A stretch of DNA of 64,000 nt from Actinomadura rayongensis (GTDB lineage Bacteria > Actinomycetota > Actinomycetes > Streptosporangiales > Streptosporangiaceae): assembly GCF_009831215.1 (NCBI RefSeq), contig NZ_WUTW01000008.1, positions 62,001-126,000 on the forward strand, given 5' to 3'. Below, piece after piece: positions 27,562-63,220 of this stretch. Position 1 is the stretch's first letter. Each line of letters opens with the position of its first letter. A program made the translations under genes and the position numbers. The notes below the pieces were generated by a model, which was not told where the DNA came from, did no database searches, and saw only the letters and a list, made by a program, of their open reading frames with translations.

Positions 27562-28327
27562 AAAACGTGAGCGAGGAGACGAACGCCGGAACCGCGGACG
27601 CGCGGCCCGTCGGCGCGCCGTCGGGCCAGCGGGAGCGCGACACGCGCGCCCGGGTCGCCCGGCACATCCTCGAACACGGGCCGATCACGGCGTCCGCGCT
27701 CGGCGAGCTGATGGGCCTGACGCCCGCGGCCGTCCGCCGGCACCTGGACGCCCTGCTCGCCGAGGGCATGATCGAGATCCGCCGGGCGCGGCCCCAGTCG
27801 CGGCGCGGCCGGGGTCGTCCGGCCAAGTGGTTCGCGATCACCGAGTCCGGCCGGAGCGCCTTCGTCCACGCCTACGACGACCTCGCGACCAGCGCGCTGC
27901 GGTTCCTCGCCGAGACGGCGGGGGAGCGCGCGGTGGCCGAGTTCGCCCGGCGCCAGATCGGCGAGCTGGAACGCCGGCACCGTCCCGCCGTCCAGGCCGC
28001 CCCGCCGCACCAGCGGGTCCGCAGGCTGGCCGAGGCCCTGTCGGGCGACGGCTACGCCGCCGCCGCGGGCAAGGCGCCGCCGCCGGGCGGCGGCGAGCAA
28101 CTGTGCCAGCACCACTGCCCGGTCGCGCACGTCGCGGCCGAGTTCCCGCAGCTCTGCGAGGCCGAGACCGAGGCGTTCAGCCGGATGCTCGGCACCCCGG
28201 TGCAGCGGCTCGCGACGATCGCCCACGGCGACGGCATCTGCACGACCCACGTCAGCCCGCGCTCCCTGTGCGCAGGGAACGGCGCCGACGCGACCTTGAC
28301 CGACGAGGAGTCCGGGAGGACCTCCCT

Positions 28328-49763: not shown

Positions 49764-50576
49764 TCAGGTCGCGATGCGCTCGGCCCCGGTGTAGACGTTC
49801 ATCGTCTCGCCGCGCAGGAACCCCACGAGCGTCAGCCCGGCGTCCTCGGCGAGGTCCACCGCGAGCGACGACGGCGCCGACACCGCCGCCAGTACGGGGA
49901 TCCCGGCCTGCGCCGCCTTCTGCGTCAGCTCGAAGGACGCGCGCCCGCTCACCATGAGGATCCGCCCCGACAGCGGCAGCAGATCGGCGCGCAGCGCCCA
50001 GCCGACGACCTTGTCGACGGCGTTGTGGCGCCCGACGTCCTCGCGGACGGCCAGCGGTTCCCCCGCCGCGTCGAACAGTCCGGCGGCGTGCAGCCCGCCC
50101 GTCCGGTCGAAGACACGCTGCGCCGCGCGGAGCCGGTCCGGCAGGGACGCGAGGACGGCGGCGGTGACGGTCACGGGGTCGGCGGCGACGTCGTAGGGCC
50201 GCTCGGCCGCCAGCGCCTCGATGCTGGACTTGCCGCACACGCCGCACGCGCTCGTCGTCGTGAACGCGCGGGTCAGCGCCGCCTCGGGCGGATTGACGCC
50301 GGGCGCGAGCACCACGTCCAGGGTGTTCTGCTCGGTCGTGTCGGCGCAGTACCGCAGCGCGGCGACGTCGCCGGGCCCGCCGATGATCCCCTCGGCGGCG
50401 AGGAAGCCCGTCACGAGGTCGAAGTCGGCGCCGGGCGTCCGCATCGTGATCGTCAGCGGCCGTCCCGCGACGCGGATCTCCAGCGGTTCCTCGACCGCGA
50501 GCGTGTCGGGCCGCCGGCCGGCCGCTCCGGTGGTGCTCAGCCGCAGGACCGGCCTGCGCACGGTGATCCGCCCCAT
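49764..50576 (-). CDS. fdhD: Formate dehydrogenase accessory sulfurtransferase FdhD
   Basis: 270 aa. Transfers sulfur from IscS to the molybdenum cofactor of formate dehydrogenase. The active CxxC motif is in SACGVCGK (about 116) and the GRHNAVDK and SGRASFEL segments are conserved. The formate dehydrogenase itself is not in this window. The ATG is preceded by TAGCGT and 6 bases (leaderless). Confidence 0.95.
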
Positions 50577-53776: not shown

Positions 53777-54065
53777 GCTGATGGCTGACGCGTTGGTCGT
53801 CGCGGCGCTGCTGCTCACCGCCGGGGCCGCGACCGGCGTCGTGCTGACGCGCGATCCGGGACGGCAGGCGATCGTCCTGTCCGGGTACGGGCTCGCGCTC
53901 GGCGTGCTGTTCGTCGTGCTCCAGGCCCCGGACGTGGCGATGTCGCAGATCGGCGTCGGCACGGTCGTCCTCCCGCTGCTGGTCGTGCTCGCCCTGCGCG
54001 CCGCGCGGACGGCGGGCAAGGCCGCGCGGAAGCGCGCCGCCGCGCGCGAGGAGGACGGCGCATGA
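53769..54065 (+). CDS. MbhD/DUF4040-type antiporter subunit
   Basis: 98 aa with three helices. QAPDVAMSQIGVGTVVLPLL is the conserved DUF4040 signature, which elsewhere forms the C-terminal part of MrpA or stands alone as MbhD. GTG 53769 overlaps MrpG by 8 bp; ATG 53781 is an alternative. Here it stands alone, with no MrpA NuoL-like part. Confidence 0.85.
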   Translation: MAELMADALVVAALLLTAGAATGVVLTRDPGRQAIVLSGYGLALGVLFVVLQAPDVAMSQIGVGTVVLPLLVVLALRAARTAGKAARKRAAAREEDGA

Positions 54066-54781
54066 CGCCCCGCGCCCGCACCGCCGTGTTCTTCGCGGGG
54101 GCCGCCGGCATCGCCGTGCTGCTGCTCCTCGCCCTGCCCGGAATGCCGTCCTTCGGGCTCGGCGCGCACCCGTACGGCGCGCGGGCCGTCCGCGCCGGGA
54201 CCGACCAGGACACCCCCAACATCATCGCGTCGGTCAACTTCGACCAGCGCGCGCTGGACACGGTCGGCGAGGAGCTGATCCTGTTCGCGGCGGCGCTCGG
54301 CGCGGTGGTGCTGCTGCGCGCCGTCCGGGACGAGCGGCTGCGCGCGGGCGGCGACCTGCGGCACGGCCCCGCCGACGTGTTCGACGCGCTCCGCCTCACC
54401 GGCGCGCTGCTGCTGCCGGTGACGCTCGTCGTCGGCGCGTACGTCGTCGCGAACGGCTACTCCTCGCCCGGCGGCGGGTTCCAGGGCGGCGTCGTCCTCG
54501 CGAGCGCGCTGCACCTGGTCTACCTGGCCGGGGACTACCCGGCGCTGAAGCGGCTGCGGCCGATCCCGCCGTTCGAGGTCGCCGAGTCGTCGGCCGCCGC
54601 GCTGTTCGTCGTGTCCGCGCTCGCGGCCGGGGCGCTGACGGCGACCGAGCGCGGCGCGCGGACGGTCCCGTGGCTGAACGCGGTCGTCGGCGTGGAGGTC
54701 GCGTGCGGGTTCGTCATCGTGCTCGCCCGGTTCTTCGAGCAGGCGCTGGAGATCAGGCCGCGCCGGAAGGAGGCCCGGTGA
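54062..54781 (+). CDS. mrpB: Antiporter subunit B with MbhE-like N-terminus
   Basis: 239 aa. The first 90 residues resemble MbhE ([17 protein letters not shown]), then an MnhB domain with [18 protein letters not shown]. So it is a fusion of the MbhE and MrpB (MbhF) equivalents. ATG overlaps the previous stop. Confidence 0.88.
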
Positions 54782-55146
54782 GCTGGGCGGTGTACCTCGT
54801 CCCGCTGTGGATCCTGCTGGTCGGCGTGTACGGGGTCGCGACGACGCGGGACCTCGTCCACGCGATCGTGTGCGTGTCGGTGGCGCAGTCGTCGACCTAC
54901 GTCCTGCTGCTGCTCGTCGGGTACCGCAAGGGCGGGACGGCGCCGGTGTTCTCCGACATCGCGCCCGGGTCCCGTCCGGTCACCGACCCGGTCGTGCAGG
55001 CGATGGCGCTCACCGACATCGTCGTCGGCGCGACGATCACCGCGATGCTGCTGGCGCTCGCCGTCCAGGTCGCCAAGCGGCGCGGCACGCTCGACCCGGG
55101 CGAGCTGCGGTCGCTGGAGAGCGCGGCCACGGACGGGCACCGGTGA
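54778..55146 (+). CDS. mrpC: Antiporter subunit C (MrpC/MnhC, NuoK-like)
   Basis: 122 aa with three helices; [20 protein letters not shown] is the conserved MrpC/NuoK segment. GTG 54778 overlaps the B stop and its own stop overlaps D. Confidence 0.9.
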
Positions 55147-56897
55147 TCCTCCCGACGGTGATCGGGCTGCCGTGCGGCGCGGCGGCGCTGCTGGCCGCCG
55201 CCGGACGGCTGCTGCCGCGCCGCGTGGTCGACGCGTTCGCCGCCGCCGTCGTCCTCGCGTTGTGCGGGCTGCTCGGCGCCGTCCTCGTCCGGACGACCGG
55301 CGGGCCGCTCACCGAATGGCCCGGCGGCTGGTCGCCGCGCACCGGGGCGCCGGGGATCGCGCTCGTCGCCGACCCGTTCGCGGCGGGCCTCGCGCTGACG
55401 ATCGCCGTGCTCGCGCTCGCGTCGCTGGTCTACTCGTGGCGGTTCTTCACCGAGGTCCACGCGGCGTTCCACGCGCTGCTCCTGCTGTTCACCGGCGCGA
55501 TGTGCGGGTTCGTCCTGACCGGCGATCTGTTCGACCAGTTCGTCTTCTACGAGCTGATGAGCGTGATCGCGGTCGTCCTCACCGGCTACCTGCCCGAGGA
55601 GCCGAAGACCGTCCACGGCGCGCTGAACTTCGGCGTCGTCGCGTCGCTCGGCGGGACGCTCACGCTCACCGGCATTGGCCTGCTGTACGCGCGGACGGGC
55701 GAGCTGAACCTGCTCGTCCTCGGCGACCACGTGGGGACGTCCCGCGACGCGCTGACGACCGCCGGGTTCGTCCTGGTCGCGACGGGCTTCCTGGTGAAGG
55801 CGGCGGCCGTCCCGTTCCACTTCTGGCTGGCCGACGCGCACGCCGTCGCCCCGACGCCCGTCTGCGTGCTGTTCTCCGGCGTCATGGTCGAACTCGGCGT
55901 CTACGCGATCGCCCGGCTGTACTGGACGGTCTTCGCGCACGGGGCGATCGCGGCCGGACGGTCCCTGGCCGTCCTCGGCGCGCTCACCGCGCTGCTCGGC
56001 GCCGTCATGTGCGTCACGCAGCGGCACATCAAGCGGCTGCTGGCCTACTCCACGATCAGCCACGCGGGCCTGCTGCTCGTCGGCGTCGCGCTGCTGGACG
56101 GCCACGCCCTCGCCGGCGCTGCCTGCTACCTGCTCGGTCACGCCGGGGCGAAGGCGGGCCTGTTCCTCGCGGCGGGCACGCTGCTCAACCGGTTCGGCTC
56201 GGTGGACGAGGACACCCTCCACGGGCGCGGACGCGGCCTGCGCGTCACCGCGCCGGTGTTCCTCATCGGCGGGCTTGGGCTCGCCGGGCTGCCGCCGTCC
56301 GGGCTGTGGGCGGGCAAAGCGGTCATCGAGCACGCGGCGGGGGAGCGCGGCTGGTGGTGGGTGACGCCGCTCGCGCTCGCGGTGTCGGCGCTCACCGGCG
56401 GCGCGGTGCTGCGCGTGTGGCTGCACGTGTTCCGGGGCGCGGGGCGTCCGGCCGCGCACGGCGCGTCGGACGAGAAGGCCGAGACCGGACGCGAGCTGCC
56501 GCGCACGCCGTGGACGATGACCGTCCCCGCGCTCGTCCTGGCCGCCGCCGGACTGCTCCTCGGCCTGCTGCCCGGCCTGGCCCGCGCGCTGACGGCCGGG
56601 GCCGCCGTGTTCACCGACACGGCGGCGCTGCACGCGGCGGTGCTCGGGGGCGTCCGGGAACCCGCGCCGCATCCGGCGGCGACGCCGTTCGCGAGCCCGG
56701 ACGGCCTGGCCCTGGCGTTCGCGGGCGTCGCCCTCGCGGCCTTCGTCGCCTGGACGGGCCTGCGGCGCGGCGAGGGACGGGTGACGGGCCGCCTGGTCCG
56801 CCCGCTGCACCTCGCCCATTCCGGCCACGCGGGCGACTACGCGGCCTGGCTCGCCGCCGGGACGGCCGTGTTCGCCGCGCTCCAGCTCTGGCGGTGA
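55143..56897 (+). CDS. mrpD: Antiporter subunit D (MrpD/MnhD, NuoN/M-like)
   Basis: 584 aa with about 14 helices. The proton-channel features are FYELMSV with the key Glu, the lysine in [14 protein letters not shown] and [15 protein letters not shown]. It is the only large NuoL/M/N-like channel subunit in the operon. GTG 55143 overlaps MrpC. The operon should exchange Na+ or K+ for H+ across the membrane. Confidence 0.94.
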
Positions 56898-56919
56898 CCA
56901 GTCCGATACCAGCAGTTTG

Positions 56920-56949
56920 TTGATCGTTTGGTGTGTTCCGTGAGATACC
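56920..56949 (+). promoter_or_regulatory. Probable promoter of the SelD homologue
   Basis: An AT-richer island. TTGATC (56920-56925), 18-bp spacer and GATACC (56944-56949), then 7 bases to GTG 56957. Confidence 0.4.
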
Positions 56950-56956
56950 TGCCCCC

Positions 56957-57922
56957 GTGATCGGCCCTCCCGCTCCCCTCCGGCTCACCCGGTACGCCCA
57001 CGGCGGGGGCGGTGCCGGACGCCTCCCGCCCGCCGTCCTGGACCGCCTCGCCCCCGAGGCCCACGGCGACGCCGCCGTCCTGCTCCCGCCCGCCGGACGG
57101 TCCGGCGAGCACGCGGTCGTCTCGGCCGCCGCGTTCTGCGCCCCGGTCGTCGACGACCCCTACGACTGGGGCCGCATCGCCGCCGCCGACGCGTTCTCGC
57201 CCGTCTACGCCGCCGGCGGCCGGCCCGTCATGGCGCTGGACCTGCTCGCCTGGCCGCACGCCGCGCTCGGCGAGGACCTGGCCCGCGAGGTGCTGCGCGG
57301 CGGCCGGGACGGCGCGGCGGCGGCCGGGTGCGTCATCGCGGGCGGCCACGGCGCCGACGGCACCGAGCCGACCTACGGGCTCGCCGTCACCGGCGTCGCC
57401 GACCCCGGCCGGATGCTGCGGCCGGACGCGGGCGTCCCGGGCGTGCCGCTGTCGCTCACCAAGCCGCTCGGCCTCGGCGTCCTCAACGCCCGGCACCGCG
57501 CGACCGGCGAGGCGTTCCCGGCGGCGGTCGCGGCGATGACCCGGCTGAACGCCGCCGCGTCCGGCCTGGCCCTCGCCAACGGAGTCATGTGCGCGGGCGC
57601 GGTCGGCGGGACGGGCCTGCTCGGCCGACTCTTCCGCATCGCCCGCGCGAGCGGCGTCACCGCCGTGGTCGAGGCCGCCGCCGTGCCCTACCTCGACGGC
57701 GCCCGCGCGTCGGTCCGCGACGGGTTCGTCCCGCCCGGCACGCACCACAACCTCGCCTGGGTCGCGGGCGGCACCGACTTCGGCCGGATCGCCGAGGACG
57801 AGCGGCTGCTGCTCGCCGACGCCCAGACCTCCGGCGGCCTGCTGCTGGCCGGAGAGATCCCGGGCGCCCCGGTGATCGGCGAGCTGGTCCCGCGGCGGGA
57901 GGCGCTGCTGGTCGTCCGCTGA
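56957..57922 (+). CDS. selD: SelD (selenophosphate synthetase) homologue lacking catalytic residues
   Basis: 321 aa. The whole fold aligns by eye with E. coli SelD: LTRYAHG, VDDPYDWGRIAA, GGHGADGTEPTYGLAVTG, LTKPLGLGVL, AQTSGGLLL. But the catalytic loop HGAGCGCKISP reads HGGGGAGRLPP, so Cys17, Cys19 and Lys20 are Gly, Gly and Arg. The metal Asp of TTDFF is Ala (SAAAFC) and that of MTDVTG is Ala (CAGAVG). Selenophosphate synthesis by the known mechanism seems impossible. GTG 56957 is preferred from family N-terminal length; GTG 56933 is longer. No stop or frameshift is seen. It ends abutting convergent prpE. Confidence 0.88.
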   Translation: MIGPPAPLRLTRYAHGGGGAGRLPPAVLDRLAPEAHGDAAVLLPPAGRSGEHAVVSAAAFCAPVVDDPYDWGRIAAADAFSPVYAAGGRPVMALDLLAWPHAALGEDLAREVLRGGRDGAAAAGCVIAGGHGADGTEPTYGLAVTGVADPGRMLRPDAGVPGVPLSLTKPLGLGVLNARHRATGEAFPAAVAAMTRLNAAASGLALANGVMCAGAVGGTGLLGRLFRIARASGVTAVVEAAAVPYLDGARASVRDGFVPPGTHHNLAWVAGGTDFGRIAEDERLLLADAQTSGGLLLAGEIPGAPVIGELVPRREALLVVR

Positions 57923-59803
57923 TCAGTCGCGGCGCAGCACCGGGCGCAGCGCGTCGAGCACGGCCGGGTCCTCGATCGTGGACGGCACCGGGACGTCCTC
58001 CCCGGCGGCGATCCCGCGCATCGCGCCGCGCAGGATCTTCCCCGACCGCGTCTTCGGCAGCGCGGGCACGACCGCGACCTCCCGCAGCGCCGCGACCGGG
58101 CCGATCCGCGCCCGCACCAGCGCCACCAGCTCGTCGGCCAGCGCCGCCGGATCGGCGTCCGCGCCCGCCTTCAGCACGACGAACCCGCGCGGCACCTGGC
58201 CCTTCACCGGGTCGCCGACGCCGATCACCGCGCACTCGGCCACCGCCGGATGCCCCGACAGCGCCTCCTCCATCGACCCGGTGGACAGCCGGTGCCCGGC
58301 CACGTTGATGACGTCGTCGGTGCGGCCCATGATCCAGACGTAGCCGTCGGCGTCGACGTGGCCGCCGTCGCCGGTGAGGTAGTGGCCGGGATGGCGGGTC
58401 AGGTAGGACTCGACGAACCGCTCGTCGTCGTGCCACAGCGTCGGCAGCGTGCCCGGCGGAAGGGGGAGGCGCAGCACGACGTCGCCGTCCACGCCGGGCG
58501 GGACCGGGTCGCCGTCCGGGCCGAGGACGCGCACCGCGAACCCCGGCACCGGCACCGACGGCGACCCCGGCTTGACCGGCAGCTCCTCCAGGCCGCGCGG
58601 GTTCGCCACGATCGGCCAGCCCGTCTCGGTCTGCCACCAGTGGTCCACGACCGGACGGCCGAGCGCTTCGGCCGCCCACCGGTACGTCTCGGGGTCCAGG
58701 CGCTCCCCGGCGAGGAACAGCGCGTCCAGCGCGGACAGGTCGTGCCCGGCGGCCAGCCGCCCGGACGGGTCCTCGCGGCGGATCGCGCGGATCGCGGTCG
58801 GGGCGGTGAGCAGCACCTTCACCCGGTGTTGCGCCGCGACGCGCCAGAACGCGCCCGCGTCCGGCGTCCCGACCGGTTTGCCCTCGTACAGGACGGTCGT
58901 GCAGCCCGTCAGCAGCGGCCCGTACACGATGTAGGAGTGGCCGACGACCCAGCCGACGTCCGACGCCGCCCAGAACACGTCGCCCGGCCGCGCCCCGTAC
59001 ACGTTCTCCATCGACCAGCGCAGCGCCACCGCGTGCCCGCCGTTGTCGCGGACGACGCCCTTCGGCCGCCCGGTCGTCCCGGACGTGTACAGGATGTAGA
59101 GCGGATCGGTCGCCGCGACCGGGACGCAGTCGGCGGGCTCGGCGGCGGCCACGGCCTCGTCCCAGTCCACGTCGCGCGGGCACGTCAGCGGGACCCGCAG
59201 CGCGTCCCGCTGCTTGACCACGCAGTGCCGCACCGGGTGGGACGCCAGGCGCAAAGCCTCGTCCAGCAGCGGCTTGTACGGGACGACCCGCGACCCTTCG
59301 ATGCCGCACGACGCCGACACGACCGCCTTCGGCCGCGCGTCGTCGATCCGCAGCGCCAGCTCCCGCGCCGCGAACCCGCCGAACACCACCGAGTGGACGG
59401 CCCCGATCCGCGCGCACGCCAGCATCGCCACGACCGCCTCGGGGATCATCGGCATGTAGAGCACGACGCGGTCGCCCGTCCGCACGCCGAGCGCTAACAG
59501 CGCGCCCGCGAACCGCGCGGTCAGGTTCGTCAGCTCCCGGTAGGTGTAGGTGCGGACGGTCCCGGTGACCGGGCTGTCGTAGATCAGGGCGGGCTGCGCG
59601 CCGCGCCCTTCGGCGACATGCCGGTCGAGCGCGTTGTCGCAGGTGTTCAGCTCGCCGCCGGTGAACCAGCGGTAGAACGGCGGCGCGCCGTCGTCCAGCA
59701 CCCGGTCCGGCGGGACGAGCCACCGGACGTCGCGGGCCGCGAGCCCCCAGAAGCGGGTGGGATCGGTGATGCTGCGCTCGTACGCCGCCCCGTAGACGCC
59801 CAT
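57923..59803 (-). CDS. prpE: Propionyl-CoA synthetase (PrpE type)
   Basis: 626 aa AMP-forming acyl-CoA ligase. The P-loop YTSGTTGRPKGVV, WWQTETGWPI, LTGDGGHVDADGY hinge and the C-terminal acetylatable lysine in PKTRSGKILRG are intact. CGIEGSRVVPYKPLLD is characteristic of PrpE. It activates propionate (possibly acetate), and may be controlled by lysine acylation reversed by sirtuin. Transcribed opposite to, and between, the SelD and SelB homologues. Confidence 0.94.
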   Translation of the reverse strand: MGVYGAAYERSITDPTRFWGLAARDVRWLVPPDRVLDDGAPPFYRWFTGGELNTCDNALDRHVAEGRGAQPALIYDSPVTGTVRTYTYRELTNLTARFAGALLALGVRTGDRVVLYMPMIPEAVVAMLACARIGAVHSVVFGGFAARELALRIDDARPKAVVSASCGIEGSRVVPYKPLLDEALRLASHPVRHCVVKQRDALRVPLTCPRDVDWDEAVAAAEPADCVPVAATDPLYILYTSGTTGRPKGVVRDNGGHAVALRWSMENVYGARPGDVFWAASDVGWVVGHSYIVYGPLLTGCTTVLYEGKPVGTPDAGAFWRVAAQHRVKVLLTAPTAIRAIRREDPSGRLAAGHDLSALDALFLAGERLDPETYRWAAEALGRPVVDHWWQTETGWPIVANPRGLEELPVKPGSPSVPVPGFAVRVLGPDGDPVPPGVDGDVVLRLPLPPGTLPTLWHDDERFVESYLTRHPGHYLTGDGGHVDADGYVWIMGRTDDVINVAGHRLSTGSMEEALSGHPAVAECAVIGVGDPVKGQVPRGFVVLKAGADADPAALADELVALVRARIGPVAALREVAVVPALPKTRSGKILRGAMRGIAAGEDVPVPSTIEDPAVLDALRPVLRRD

Positions 59804-60187: not shown

Positions 60188-61942
60188 ATGCAGGTCGTCG
60201 TCACCGCCGGCCACGCGGGCCACGGGAAGTCCGCCCTCGTGCGGGCCCTCACCGGCCGCGACCCGGTGCCGCTCGCGCCCGGCGACGCCAGCGGGCTCGC
60301 CGCCGCGTGGACGGACCTGCCGTCCGGCACCCGGCTCGCGTTCGTGGACACCCCCGGCGGCCCGCGCTCGGTCCCGGCGATGGCGGTCGCCGCCGGGTCC
60401 GCGACGGCCGCGCTGATCGCCGTCGCCGCCGACGAGGGCTGGCGCGAGCAGACCGGCGCGCACCTGGCGGCGCTGGACGCGCTCGGCGTGCGGCACGCGG
60501 TCCTCGCCGTCACCCGCGCCGACGTCGCCGACCCCCGGCTCGCGCTGCGCCAGGCCCGCGACCGGCTCGCCGCGACCGGGCTGCGCGGCGCCGAGACCGT
60601 CGCGGTGAGCACGGCCGACGGCACCGGCCTGGACGACCTGGTCGCCGCGCTGGACCGGCTCGCCGCGCGGCTGCCGGTGCCCGACCCCGCCGCGCCCGTC
60701 CGGTTCTGGATCGACGGCGCGTGCCGGTCGGGCGCGGTGCCCGGGATGCCCGCGACCGTCCTCGTCACCGGGACGCTCGGCGCGGGCACCGTCGCGGCGG
60801 GCGACGAGCTGCTGCTCCTGCCCGCGGGCGCGCGGGTGCGGGTGCGCGCCGTCCGGTCCGGCGGGGCGCCGTGCCCGAGCGCGCACGGCGTCGCGCGGAT
60901 CTCGCTCGTCCTGCCCGACTCGGTGCGCGTCGCGCCCGGCATGGCGCTGGTGACGCCCGGCGCGTGGACGCCCACGACCGCCGTCGACGTGCGGACCCGG
61001 TCGGAGGAGGCGTCCGGGCGGCTGCCGCGCCGGATGGTCCTGCACACCGGGTCCACGACCGTCCGGGTCCGGCTGCACCCGCTCGGCCCCGACACCGCGC
61101 GGCTCACGCTGAACGCGCGGCTGCCCCTGCACGCCGGGGACGCGGCGCTGCTGCGCGACCCCGAGCGCGGCGTGCTCGCGGGCGCGCACGTGCTGGACGT
61201 CCGGCCGCCGCCGCTGCTCGGACGCGGCGCGGCGGCGGCCCGCGCGCGGGAGCTGGCGTCCTGGCCGGACCGTCCGGACGGCGTCGCGGTCCTGCGCCGG
61301 CACGGCGTCCTGCGGCGCTCGGAGCTGGCCGCGCTCGGCTGCCCCGTCCCGGTCGGCGCGGTCGAGCCCGGCCCGGACTGGGTCGCCGACCCGGCCGCGT
61401 GGACGGAGCTGCGCGCCCGCCTCGCCGCCGCTGCCGCCCGGCACGCCGCCGACTCCCCGGACGCGCCCGGGCTGCCGATCGAGACGGCGCGGCTGCGGCT
61501 CGGCCTGCCGTCCCGCGACCTCGTCGCCGCGCTCGCGGGCGCCGCCGGGGAGCCGGAGCTGCGGGTGGCGGGCGGACGCGTCCACGGCCCGCCGCCCCCG
61601 CTGCCGCCCGGCGTCGCCGCCGCCGTCGCGCGCCTCGCCGGGGACCTGCGGCCCGCGCCGTTCGGGGCGCCGCCCGCCGAACGGCTCGCCGAGCTGGGCC
61701 TGACCGGCGGGGCGCTGGACGCCGCCGAACGCGCCGGGGCCGTCCTGCGGCTCCCCGGCGACGTCGTGCTGCTGCCCGGCGCGGAGCAGGCGGCGCTGCG
61801 CGTCCTCGCGGACCTGCCGCAGCCGTTCACCCCGGCGGAGGCGAGCGCGGCGCTGACGACGTCCCGGCGCGTGGTCGTCGCGCTGCTGGAGCACCTGGAT
61901 CGCATGGGCCTCACCCGGCGGGTGCCGCCGAAAACCGATTGA
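60188..61942 (+). CDS. selB: SelB (selenocysteine elongation factor) homologue with degenerate GTPase domain
   Basis: 584 aa, normal actinobacterial SelB length. P-loop GHAGHGKS (residues 8-15) is kept, but the switch I segment with RGxTID is missing, replaced by APGDASGLAAAW. Switch II DVPGH reads DTPGG (residues 54-58), losing the catalytic His. The NKxD equivalent is TRAD. Domain II VTGTLGAGTV and the C-terminal winged helices (RRVVVALLEHLDRMGLTRR), which bind SECIS RNA, look better kept. Normal selenocysteine delivery is doubtful. ATG follows GGAAGGG at 11 bases. Confidence 0.88.
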   Translation: MQVVVTAGHAGHGKSALVRALTGRDPVPLAPGDASGLAAAWTDLPSGTRLAFVDTPGGPRSVPAMAVAAGSATAALIAVAADEGWREQTGAHLAALDALGVRHAVLAVTRADVADPRLALRQARDRLAATGLRGAETVAVSTADGTGLDDLVAALDRLAARLPVPDPAAPVRFWIDGACRSGAVPGMPATVLVTGTLGAGTVAAGDELLLLPAGARVRVRAVRSGGAPCPSAHGVARISLVLPDSVRVAPGMALVTPGAWTPTTAVDVRTRSEEASGRLPRRMVLHTGSTTVRVRLHPLGPDTARLTLNARLPLHAGDAALLRDPERGVLAGAHVLDVRPPPLLGRGAAAARARELASWPDRPDGVAVLRRHGVLRRSELAALGCPVPVGAVEPGPDWVADPAAWTELRARLAAAAARHAADSPDAPGLPIETARLRLGLPSRDLVAALAGAAGEPELRVAGGRVHGPPPPLPPGVAAAVARLAGDLRPAPFGAPPAERLAELGLTGGALDAAERAGAVLRLPGDVVLLPGAEQAALRVLADLPQPFTPAEASAALTTSRRVVVALLEHLDRMGLTRRVPPKTD

Positions 61943-62023: not shown

Positions 62024-63220
62024 GTGCCCTACCAGACGATCGAGGGCGGTCGCGTCCCGATCCGCATGTGGACCGACCCGGCGTCCGTGGAGGACGTGGC
62101 GCGCGAGCAGCTCCGCAACGTCGCGGGCCTGCCGTGGGTCGCGGGACTCGCGGTGATGCCCGACGTCCACTACGGCAAGGGCGCGACGGTCGGTTCGGTC
62201 ATCGCGATGCGCGACGCCGTCGCCCCGGCGGCCGTCGGCGTCGACATCGGCTGCGGGATGACGGCCGTGAAGTCGTCGCTGACGGTCGAGGACCTGCCCG
62301 ACGACCTGTCCGGCCTGCGGCACCGGCTGGAGAAGGCCGTGCCGGTCGGCCGGGGCTCGCACCGCGAGCCGGTGGACCCGTCCGCACTGCCCGCGCTGAA
62401 GCTGCGCGGCTGGTACGACTTCTGGAGCGAGTTCGACGGGCTGCACCACGGCGTCCGGGACCGCTTCGGGCGCGCGCGCCAGCAGATGGGCACCCTCGGC
62501 GGCGGCAACCACTTCCTGGAGCTGTGCGCCGACGACGAGGGCGCGGTGTGGCTCATCCTGCACTCGGGGTCGCGCGGCATCGGCAACGAGCTGGCCGAGC
62601 GGCACATCGAGGCGGCGCGCAAGCTGCCGCACAACCGGGACCTGCCCGACACCGACCTGGCGGTGTTCCTCGCGGGCACCGAGGAGATGGACGCCTACCG
62701 CAACGACCTGTTCTGGGCGCAGGAGTACGCGCGCCGCAACCGGGCCGTCATGACCGCGCTCGCGCAGCGCGTCGTGACGCAGCGGTTCGGCGAGAAGCGC
62801 TGCTCCTGGGGCGAGGTCATCTCCTGCCACCACAACTACGTGGCGGAGGAGACCTACGACGGCGTCGAGCTGCTCGTCACCCGCAAGGGCGCGATCCGGG
62901 CGGGCCGGGGCGACCTCGGCATCATCCCGGGCTCGATGGCGACCGGCACCTACATCGTGCGCGGCCTCGGCAACACGGCCGCGTTCAACTCGGCGTCGCA
63001 CGGCGCGGGCCGCCGGATGAGCCGCAACAAGGCCCGCAAGGCGTTCACGCTGGACGATCTCGTCGCGCAGACCGCCGGCGTCGAGTGCCGCAAGGACACC
63101 GGCGTCCTGGACGAGATCCCCGGCGCCTACAAGGACCTGGAGACCGTCATGGCCCAGCAGTCCGACCTCGTCGAGGTCGTCGCGCACCTGCGCCAGCTCC
63201 TCTGCGTGAAGGGCGGCTGA
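62024..63220 (+). CDS. rtcB: RtcB-family RNA 3'-phosphate ligase
   Basis: 398 aa. RtcB joins RNA 2',3'-cyclic phosphate or 3'-phosphate to 5'-OH ends using GTP and Mn2+. The metal ligands Cys (DIGCGM), His (GGNHF, HSGSRG) and the guanylylated His region SASHGAGRRMSR are all intact, so it should be active. GTG 62024 has GAAGGGAAG upstream. It lies 81 bp after the SelB homologue, beyond a terminator-like hairpin, and 2 bp before the next gene. A tRNA or rRNA repair role is likely. Confidence 0.95.
   Translation: MPYQTIEGGRVPIRMWTDPASVEDVAREQLRNVAGLPWVAGLAVMPDVHYGKGATVGSVIAMRDAVAPAAVGVDIGCGMTAVKSSLTVEDLPDDLSGLRHRLEKAVPVGRGSHREPVDPSALPALKLRGWYDFWSEFDGLHHGVRDRFGRARQQMGTLGGGNHFLELCADDEGAVWLILHSGSRGIGNELAERHIEAARKLPHNRDLPDTDLAVFLAGTEEMDAYRNDLFWAQEYARRNRAVMTALAQRVVTQRFGEKRCSWGEVISCHHNYVAEETYDGVELLVTRKGAIRAGRGDLGIIPGSMATGTYIVRGLGNTAAFNSASHGAGRRMSRNKARKAFTLDDLVAQTAGVECRKDTGVLDEIPGAYKDLETVMAQQSDLVEVVAHLRQLLCVKGG

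Follow-up and report, generated by a model that had tools for sequence, protein, structure and literature searches.

Genome surveys take SelD and SelB as signs that an organism uses selenium. In animals, SPS1 is a SelD paralogue without the catalytic Cys/Sec, which is Thr, Gly, Leu or Arg depending on the lineage; it has arisen repeatedly, and insects without selenoproteins have retained it (PMC4561486). The archaeal SelB homologue aSelBL is found in species without selenocysteine and has a disrupted G domain in which the G3 histidine is not conserved (PMC3037878). Its G2 and G3 motifs are partly kept and its C-terminal domain is missing; the proposed ligand is another aminoacyl-tRNA (PMC3037878). 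A survey of translational GTPases places aSelBL in archaea and mentions one bacterial SelB duplication, there without detail (PMC4342817). Orphan SelD genes occur in bacteria that have no other known selenium-use genes, and Table 1 of the paper describing them names Actinomadura atramentaria DSM 43919 (Peng et al. 2016, PMC5029168). The paper leaves both a pseudogene and a role outside selenium possible, and the terms "catalytic" and "active site" are absent from its main text. In addition, a crenarchaeal SelD-like family lies outside selenium use and keeps the conserved functional residues (PMC4210487). Among the listed titles and abstract openings of open-licence PMC articles, we found no description of a GTPase-dead bacterial SelB or of catalytic-site loss in a bacterial SelD.

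Here, we describe SelD-A and SelB-A, homologues of the two proteins encoded in a 64,000-nucleotide stretch of Actinomadura rayongensis DNA (the window). Like metazoan SPS1/SEPHS1, SelD-A has no catalytic Cys, has lost it repeatedly across lineages, and is retained without Sec. Unlike SPS1/SEPHS1, it is bacterial, the canonical copy lies in a separate cluster, the window lineage has also lost the Mg/phosphate Asp residues, and SelB erodes in parallel. SelB-A resembles aSelBL in its disrupted G domain, its lost G3 histidine and its Sec-less genome. It differs by the disappearance of switch I, by changes at conserved positions of domain II and by a C-terminal arm in most copies; the winged helix is there in the window's copy, and the nearest structures are those of bacterial SelB. 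As with orphan SelD, the genome holds no selA, convincing tRNA-Sec or MnmH. What the present analysis adds to orphan SelD is the residue loss, the constraint, the genus-wide recurrence and the SelB counterpart. In contrast to the crenarchaeal family, which keeps its functional residues, SelD-A has lost most of them.

Results

SelD-A retains the SelD fold with a dismantled active site

The SelD-A frame is open from a GTG at 56933 to the stop at 57922. This start lies 24 bases upstream of that in the original prediction, and the near relative G039 has a Met at the equivalent position.

56933-57922, + strand: SelD-A, selenophosphate synthetase homologue with a dismantled active site (329 aa, GTG start; profiles, AlphaFold2 model, 3u0o match)
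57002-57022, + strand: glycine-rich catalytic loop of SelD-A, GGGGAGR, with C27G, C29G and K30R (alignment)
57131-57133, + strand: D67A of SelD-A, the Asp of TTDFF/STADFF (alignment)
57200-57202, + strand: D90P of SelD-A, the Asp of NALSD (alignment)
57599-57601, + strand: D223A of SelD-A, the Asp of MTDVTG/ATDVTG (alignment)

The gene was originally read as a full-length SelD homologue, and the profiles agree. NCBIfam TIGR00476 (selD) matches with 249.9 bits against a cut-off of 125, Pfam AIRS and AIRS_C are both above cut-off, and E. coli SelD (3u0o) matches with 193 bits (E 9e-56); a second SelD model, NF002098, gives 240.5 bits, below its cut-off of 299. The AlphaFold2 model, built with 42 relatives, has a mean pLDDT of 85.7, with residues 1-29, catalytic loop included, below 50. 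SelD structures are its best PDB fold matches, headed by E. coli 3u0o, and human SEPHS1 comes next. ThiL, HypE and PurM are also among the matches, as is 9hjt, whose title is Zincore (SEPHS1:QRICH1) bound to ZFP91 on DNA.

The replacement of the loop Cys/Cys/Lys by Gly/Gly/Arg and of two metal-site Asp residues by Ala (D67A, D223A), both noted originally, is borne out, and a third metal-site Asp has become Pro (D90P). The claim that every known catalytic residue is replaced was too strong, since SelD-A retains E145 and D46 (the second Asp in GDDAAV). Six of eight catalytic/ATP-phosphate positions are changed; these positions were chosen from the literature as the Leishmania SEPHS2 residues given in PMC7595633 and were mapped onto SelD by us, the placement of the Leishmania Asp64 being uncertain. 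With T65, D67, D90 and D223 replaced among the six ATP-phosphate/Mg positions, the ATP/selenium binding that the original prediction attached to a repurposed pseudo-enzyme is unsupported; a repurposed pseudoenzyme as such fits.

We compared SelD-A at 154 near-invariant columns (at least 98% invariant in 101 functional SelDs). It is unchanged at 123 and differs at 31, two of which are gaps; the changes include C27G, C29G, K30R, D45G, T65A, D67A, N86D, D90P, T222G, D223A, T225G and F227T. The loop Cys/Cys/Lys and the Asp motifs are intact in 79 of 80 SelD loci from named actinobacterial genomes, a set drawn by similarity to SelD-A rather than at random and partly made up of locus A itself. The sole exception, L184, is a relative's copy of this locus, from Actinomadura fibrosa.

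The window's genome shows no selA, convincing tRNA-Sec or MnmH

The genome of the window (G000) is 97.9% complete. A second canonical selD, which would have spoken against the original prediction, was rejected: the five remaining matches score about 70 bits or less against the cut-off of 125. A divergent selA was likewise rejected, the best match being partial and scoring 25.9 bits against a cut-off of 267.9. Neither the genome nor the window within it holds a tRNA-Sec above the gathering score of 47; the best candidate for a hidden one reaches 45.4 bits, below the clear matches of the genus (66.7-84.5 bits). MnmH was not found either, so that none of selA, selC and mnmH offers a genomic use for selenophosphate. 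ARAGORN places a 98-base tRNA-His at 27949-28046 (- strand), probably a false call; Rfam reports no tRNA in the window at the gathering score.

SelD-A might still make selenophosphate by means of other residues, and its high overall SelD score and the retained D46 and E145 could be read that way. However, both loop Cys residues and the Lys are gone, and the three consumers of the product searched for, selA, a convincing tRNA-Sec and MnmH, are missing. We regard this explanation as extremely improbable.

SelB-A has lost switch I and the G3 histidine

60188-61942, + strand: SelB-A, SelB homologue that has lost switch I and the G3 histidine (584 aa; profile, motifs, model)
60209-60232, + strand: P-loop of SelB-A, GHAGHGKS, canonically GHVDHGKS (motif alignment)
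60257-60307, + strand: switch I region of SelB-A, in which the canonical RLAEERRRGLTLDLGF is replaced and shortened (motif alignment)
60359-60361, + strand: Gly58 of SelB-A at the position of the catalytic His in DVPGHE, which here reads DTPGGP (motif alignment)

SelB-A scores 149.7 bits with TIGR00475, below the cut-off of 242.25. Its domain architecture is that of SelB, with Pfam SelB-wing_3 and GTP_EFTU above cut-off and Beta-barrel_SelB just below. The model has a mean pLDDT of 92.2, and its best PDB match is a bacterial EF-Sec, 4zu9. The P-loop GK[ST] is retained; the switch I and G3 histidine of a SelB translational GTPase are not. We scored 140 columns conserved in at least 97% of 87 functional SelBs. 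SelB-A departs from them mostly in the G domain (19 of 58 columns) and domain II (10 of 27); domain III has 3 changes among 16 columns and the C-terminal part 2 among 39.

RNA binding by the C-terminal arm was considered as the retained function. In the G000/G039 comparison, constraint is weakest in the last winged helix (dN/dS 0.229) and strongest in domain III (0.028), and the C-terminal part is missing from SelB-A of G001 and G055. Therefore, such a role for the arm is not supported. Among 54 SelB-A genes, that of G043 is frameshifted in a fragmented assembly, that of G001 ends early, and five run off their contigs. The SelB-A genes of L093, L095, L096 and L116 have about 190-450 extra in-frame bases between the part covering residues 1-470 and the last winged helix.

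Organization of locus A

49764-50576, - strand: FdhD, formate dehydrogenase accessory sulfurtransferase, conserved neighbour of locus A (profile, neighbourhood)
57923-59803, - strand: acyl-CoA ligase of the propionate/acetate--CoA ligase type, conserved between SelD-A and SelB-A (profiles, neighbourhood)
62024-63220, + strand: RtcB RNA ligase, conserved directly downstream of SelB-A (Pfam RtcB 403 bits; adjacency in relatives)

The order at locus A is FdhD - SelD-A - acyl-CoA ligase - (SelA-A) - SelB-A - RtcB, with extra intervening genes in some genomes. Two Thermomonospora loci also show the SelD - ligase - SelB - RtcB arrangement. We considered the adjacency of RtcB as a sign of shared function and take it as weak evidence, because canonical loci and Thermomonospora also have RtcB there. 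A formate dehydrogenase-like gene elsewhere in the genome (G000:C2:1754414-1756504; 552 bits, below the cut-off of 666), with no in-frame stop, may be the reason for the retention of FdhD. Mrp-type antiporter genes lie immediately upstream of SelD-A (window 54062-56932), the mrpD-like stop being 35 bases before it, and may share its transcript. Among 23 stretches, only G000, G039 and G003 have such genes near locus A (about 2 kb off in G003).

Erosion recurs across the genus

SelD matches occur in 64 of the 65 congeneric genomes and, counted by match with motifs unread, in 228 of 341 genomes of the family. selA is above cut-off in 56 of the 65 and tRNA-Sec in 60; the latter count includes G003, which we discount, reading its match (50.5 bits, 72 bases) as an ordinary tRNA. 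Six genomes (G000, G003, G011, G039, G055, G062) have neither selA nor a convincing tRNA-Sec, and three with fragmented assemblies (G030, G037, G043) are without selA only.

The state of SelB-A follows the presence of selA at the locus (SelA-A). None of the switch I Thr, the P-loop Asp and the G3 His is altered in the 12 genomes with SelA-A, whereas all 50 without it have changed one or more of them (3 of the 65 are unreadable). Switch I is lost in every genome read that has no selA at the locus, mostly together with the P-loop Asp and the G3 His. Forty-four of the 53 genomes without SelA-A have selA elsewhere. At this second place selA, selB and selD stand together in all 14 stretches fetched, and the SelD and SelB motifs there are canonical in all 14. 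The second-place SelD is 58-63% identical to the window's SelD-A, and in the tree the eroded SelD-A copies form a clade separate from it.

SelD-A could be read in 60 genomes, G016, G023, G032, G041 and G055 having no SelD at locus A. The substitutions seen in the window have counterparts across the genus, as the original prediction had proposed to check. Cys27 is lost from 21 of the 60 copies, in eight of which the loop is one residue shorter or otherwise altered, making the exact column alignment-dependent. A second SelD match is present in 17 of these 21 genomes. Cys27 is retained in 39 copies and Lys30 in 53, so for copies that keep them we only infer a non-catalytic role. By Dollo parsimony, C27 was lost independently at least 8 times, D223 4, D90 3, K30 2 and D67 2 times on one SelD tree of the 60, and C27 9 times on a neighbour-gene tree of 52; both counts rest on FastTree trees with several weak nodes. 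Broken copies in relatives had been named as a way to overturn the original reading; no frameshift or early stop was flagged among the 60 genes.

Several genomes depart from this picture. Sec-less G055 (L268, G055:C16) has no SelD match, and its SelB-A match stops near residue 467, with FdhD, the acyl-CoA ligase and RtcB in place; SelD-A and SelB-A are thus separable. G016, G023, G032 and G041 (L269-L272) carry SelA-A, which in G041 matches as two pieces, and intact SelB-A motifs. Their only SelD match is a distant copy, 48-50% identical; two of these were read (L109, L110); they sit on other contigs and their residues are canonical. A third SelD (44-47% identical) occurs in G021 (L111) and G059 (L112); an in-frame TGA falls precisely on its catalytic Cys position (HGAG*ACK), which makes this SelD itself probably a selenoprotein.

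Changes concentrate at the active site

Among the near-invariant columns, changes are enriched at the catalytic/ATP-phosphate positions, with 6 of 8 changed in G000 against 25 of 146 others (Fisher P 9e-4) and 7 of 8 against 14 of 146 in G037 (P 2.4e-6). Twelve of 17 eroded genomes tested reach an uncorrected P below 0.02: the nine most eroded copies lie between 2e-3 and 2e-6, and three weaker ones at 0.007-0.013. The enrichment is not significant in the other five, G028 (0.086) and G024, G018, G061 and G001 (0.28-0.39). Lineages also tend to change the same columns. G000 and G037 share 15 changed columns against 4.2 expected (P 3e-8), and the coincidence exceeds expectation in all nine lineage pairs tested (P 3e-8 to 5e-3).

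The AIR-synthetase fold of SelD-A might have taken on another ATP-dependent or ligand-binding activity. The fold is retained, the superfamily has several chemistries, as ThiL, HypE and PurM among the PDB matches illustrate, D46 and E145 persist, and N86D recurs in several lineages. However, the replacements differ by lineage, D67 becoming A, G, C or V, D90 becoming P, H, N, G or A, and D223 becoming A or G, which is unlike the making of a new active site. We therefore consider a new enzyme rather unlikely.

SelD-A and SelB-A remain under purifying selection

G000 and G039 share the dead SelD active site. Their dN/dS is 0.08-0.34 for SelD and 0.09-0.35 for SelB depending on the model, and 1 is rejected. 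Counting gives 0.335 for SelD and 0.347 for SelB, with neighbours at 0.03-0.37 and MrpC, whose start is uncertain, at 1.3. Differences at codon positions 1/2/3 number 10/8/27 in SelD and 13/15/45 in SelB. Maximum likelihood with F3x4 frequencies gives 0.075 and 0.094. With equal codon frequencies, it gives 0.325 for SelD (LRT against 1 = 12.4, p = 4e-4) and 0.336 for SelB (p 7e-6), and three neighbour genes are tighter at 0.10-0.22 than SelD-A and SelB-A (0.33, 0.34). The SelD N-terminal loop stands at 0.302 in this pair. All close pairs have dN/dS far below 1, in tables that skip pairs with missing or cut genes. The alignments omit sequences shorter than 80% of the median length, keeping 47 of 54 SelB-A, 42 of 45 RtcB and 53 of 55 FdhD sequences, the others being complete.

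A branch codon model for SelD (F3x4; 11 of the 60 SelD-A genomes, fixed topology adapted from a SelD tree) gives 0.065/0.078/0.107 for background/stem/tips, the background including Sec-less G011 and G062. For the G000/G039 tips, omega = 1 is rejected (2dlnL 42.9) and equality with the background is not (2.1). The corresponding SelB values are 0.073/0.106/0.123, with tips = 1 rejected (65) and 3.7 for tips = background. Pooled dN/dS is 0.099 for SelB-A against 0.053 for canonical SelB, and 0.084 against 0.023 in the G domain, with the canonical pairs near saturation and the pooled canonical estimate for 346-500 meaningless (dS 57). With dN/dS below 1 and open frames, SelD-A and SelB-A are kept, under somewhat relaxed constraint.

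The estimates vary more than fourfold by method (0.075 to 0.335), and the apparent constraint might be a model artefact of extreme third-position G+C. A calculation at 4-fold sites is not relied on, since A/T sites are very scarce in it and its neutral expectation comes out too high. Yet maximum likelihood with equal frequencies still rejects 1 for both genes, and an artefact seems very unlikely to us.

Early decay, one of the two outcomes originally suggested, would mean that SelD-A is left over from a lost Sec pathway and that its frame is still open by chance, aided by high G+C. selA and tRNA-Sec are indeed gone, Sec-less G055 has only a truncated SelB-A and nothing matching SelD, and functional copies and neighbours are somewhat more tightly constrained. 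Against decay, dN/dS stays well below 1 after the loss of the catalytic residues under two frequency models, frames are open in relatives, and the codon-position differences pile up at third positions. In addition, the intact near-invariant columns of G000 far outnumber those changed, and the changes are concentrated at the active site rather than spread. Decay is therefore contradicted on several counts, and we hold it to be unlikely.

Discussion

SelD-A has no catalytic Cys/Sec and is yet under purifying selection, as an SPS1-like paralogue would be. We consider it reasonably likely that SelD-A is a SelD pseudoenzyme under selection for a job independent of selenophosphate synthesis. Beyond the original prediction, SelB two genes on degenerates in parallel, selA and tRNA-Sec are absent, and the erosion recurs genus-wide. 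By analogy, we infer that the eroded SelD-A is kept beside the GTPase-impaired SelB-A for a selenium-independent role. SelD and SelB of locus A may already have had, or may have gained, a second, non-catalytic role. Selection would have continued on this second role alone after catalysis passed to the other selA-selB-selD cluster or the Sec trait disappeared. Most likely, by analogy with animal SPS1/SEPHS1, SelD-A would then act as a folded protein scaffold or regulator, and SelB-A as a factor that works without GTP and has its best-conserved part in domain III.

More tentatively, Actinomadura may have converted part of its old Sec machinery to a use that does not involve selenium, as a module of non-catalytic SelD scaffold and GTPase-dead SelB beside RtcB that is kept in most of the genus and outlasts complete loss of Sec. 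We see this broader proposal as possible and would not yet bet on it.

For genome surveys, both markers are present here, SelD above cut-off and SelB as a near-member, yet the residues they carry and the partners they lack make it unlikely that they serve selenium use. Within the genus, copies range naturally from intact to dismantled, and some genomes have the dead copy alone, so that a role of SelD besides selenophosphate synthesis becomes testable in a bacterium by gene deletion. The same question stands for animal SPS1/SEPHS1. If the module proposal is true, SelD and SelB would have carried out a second, unrecognised role already before the loss of catalysis, and that role could be sought in ordinary Sec-using bacteria.
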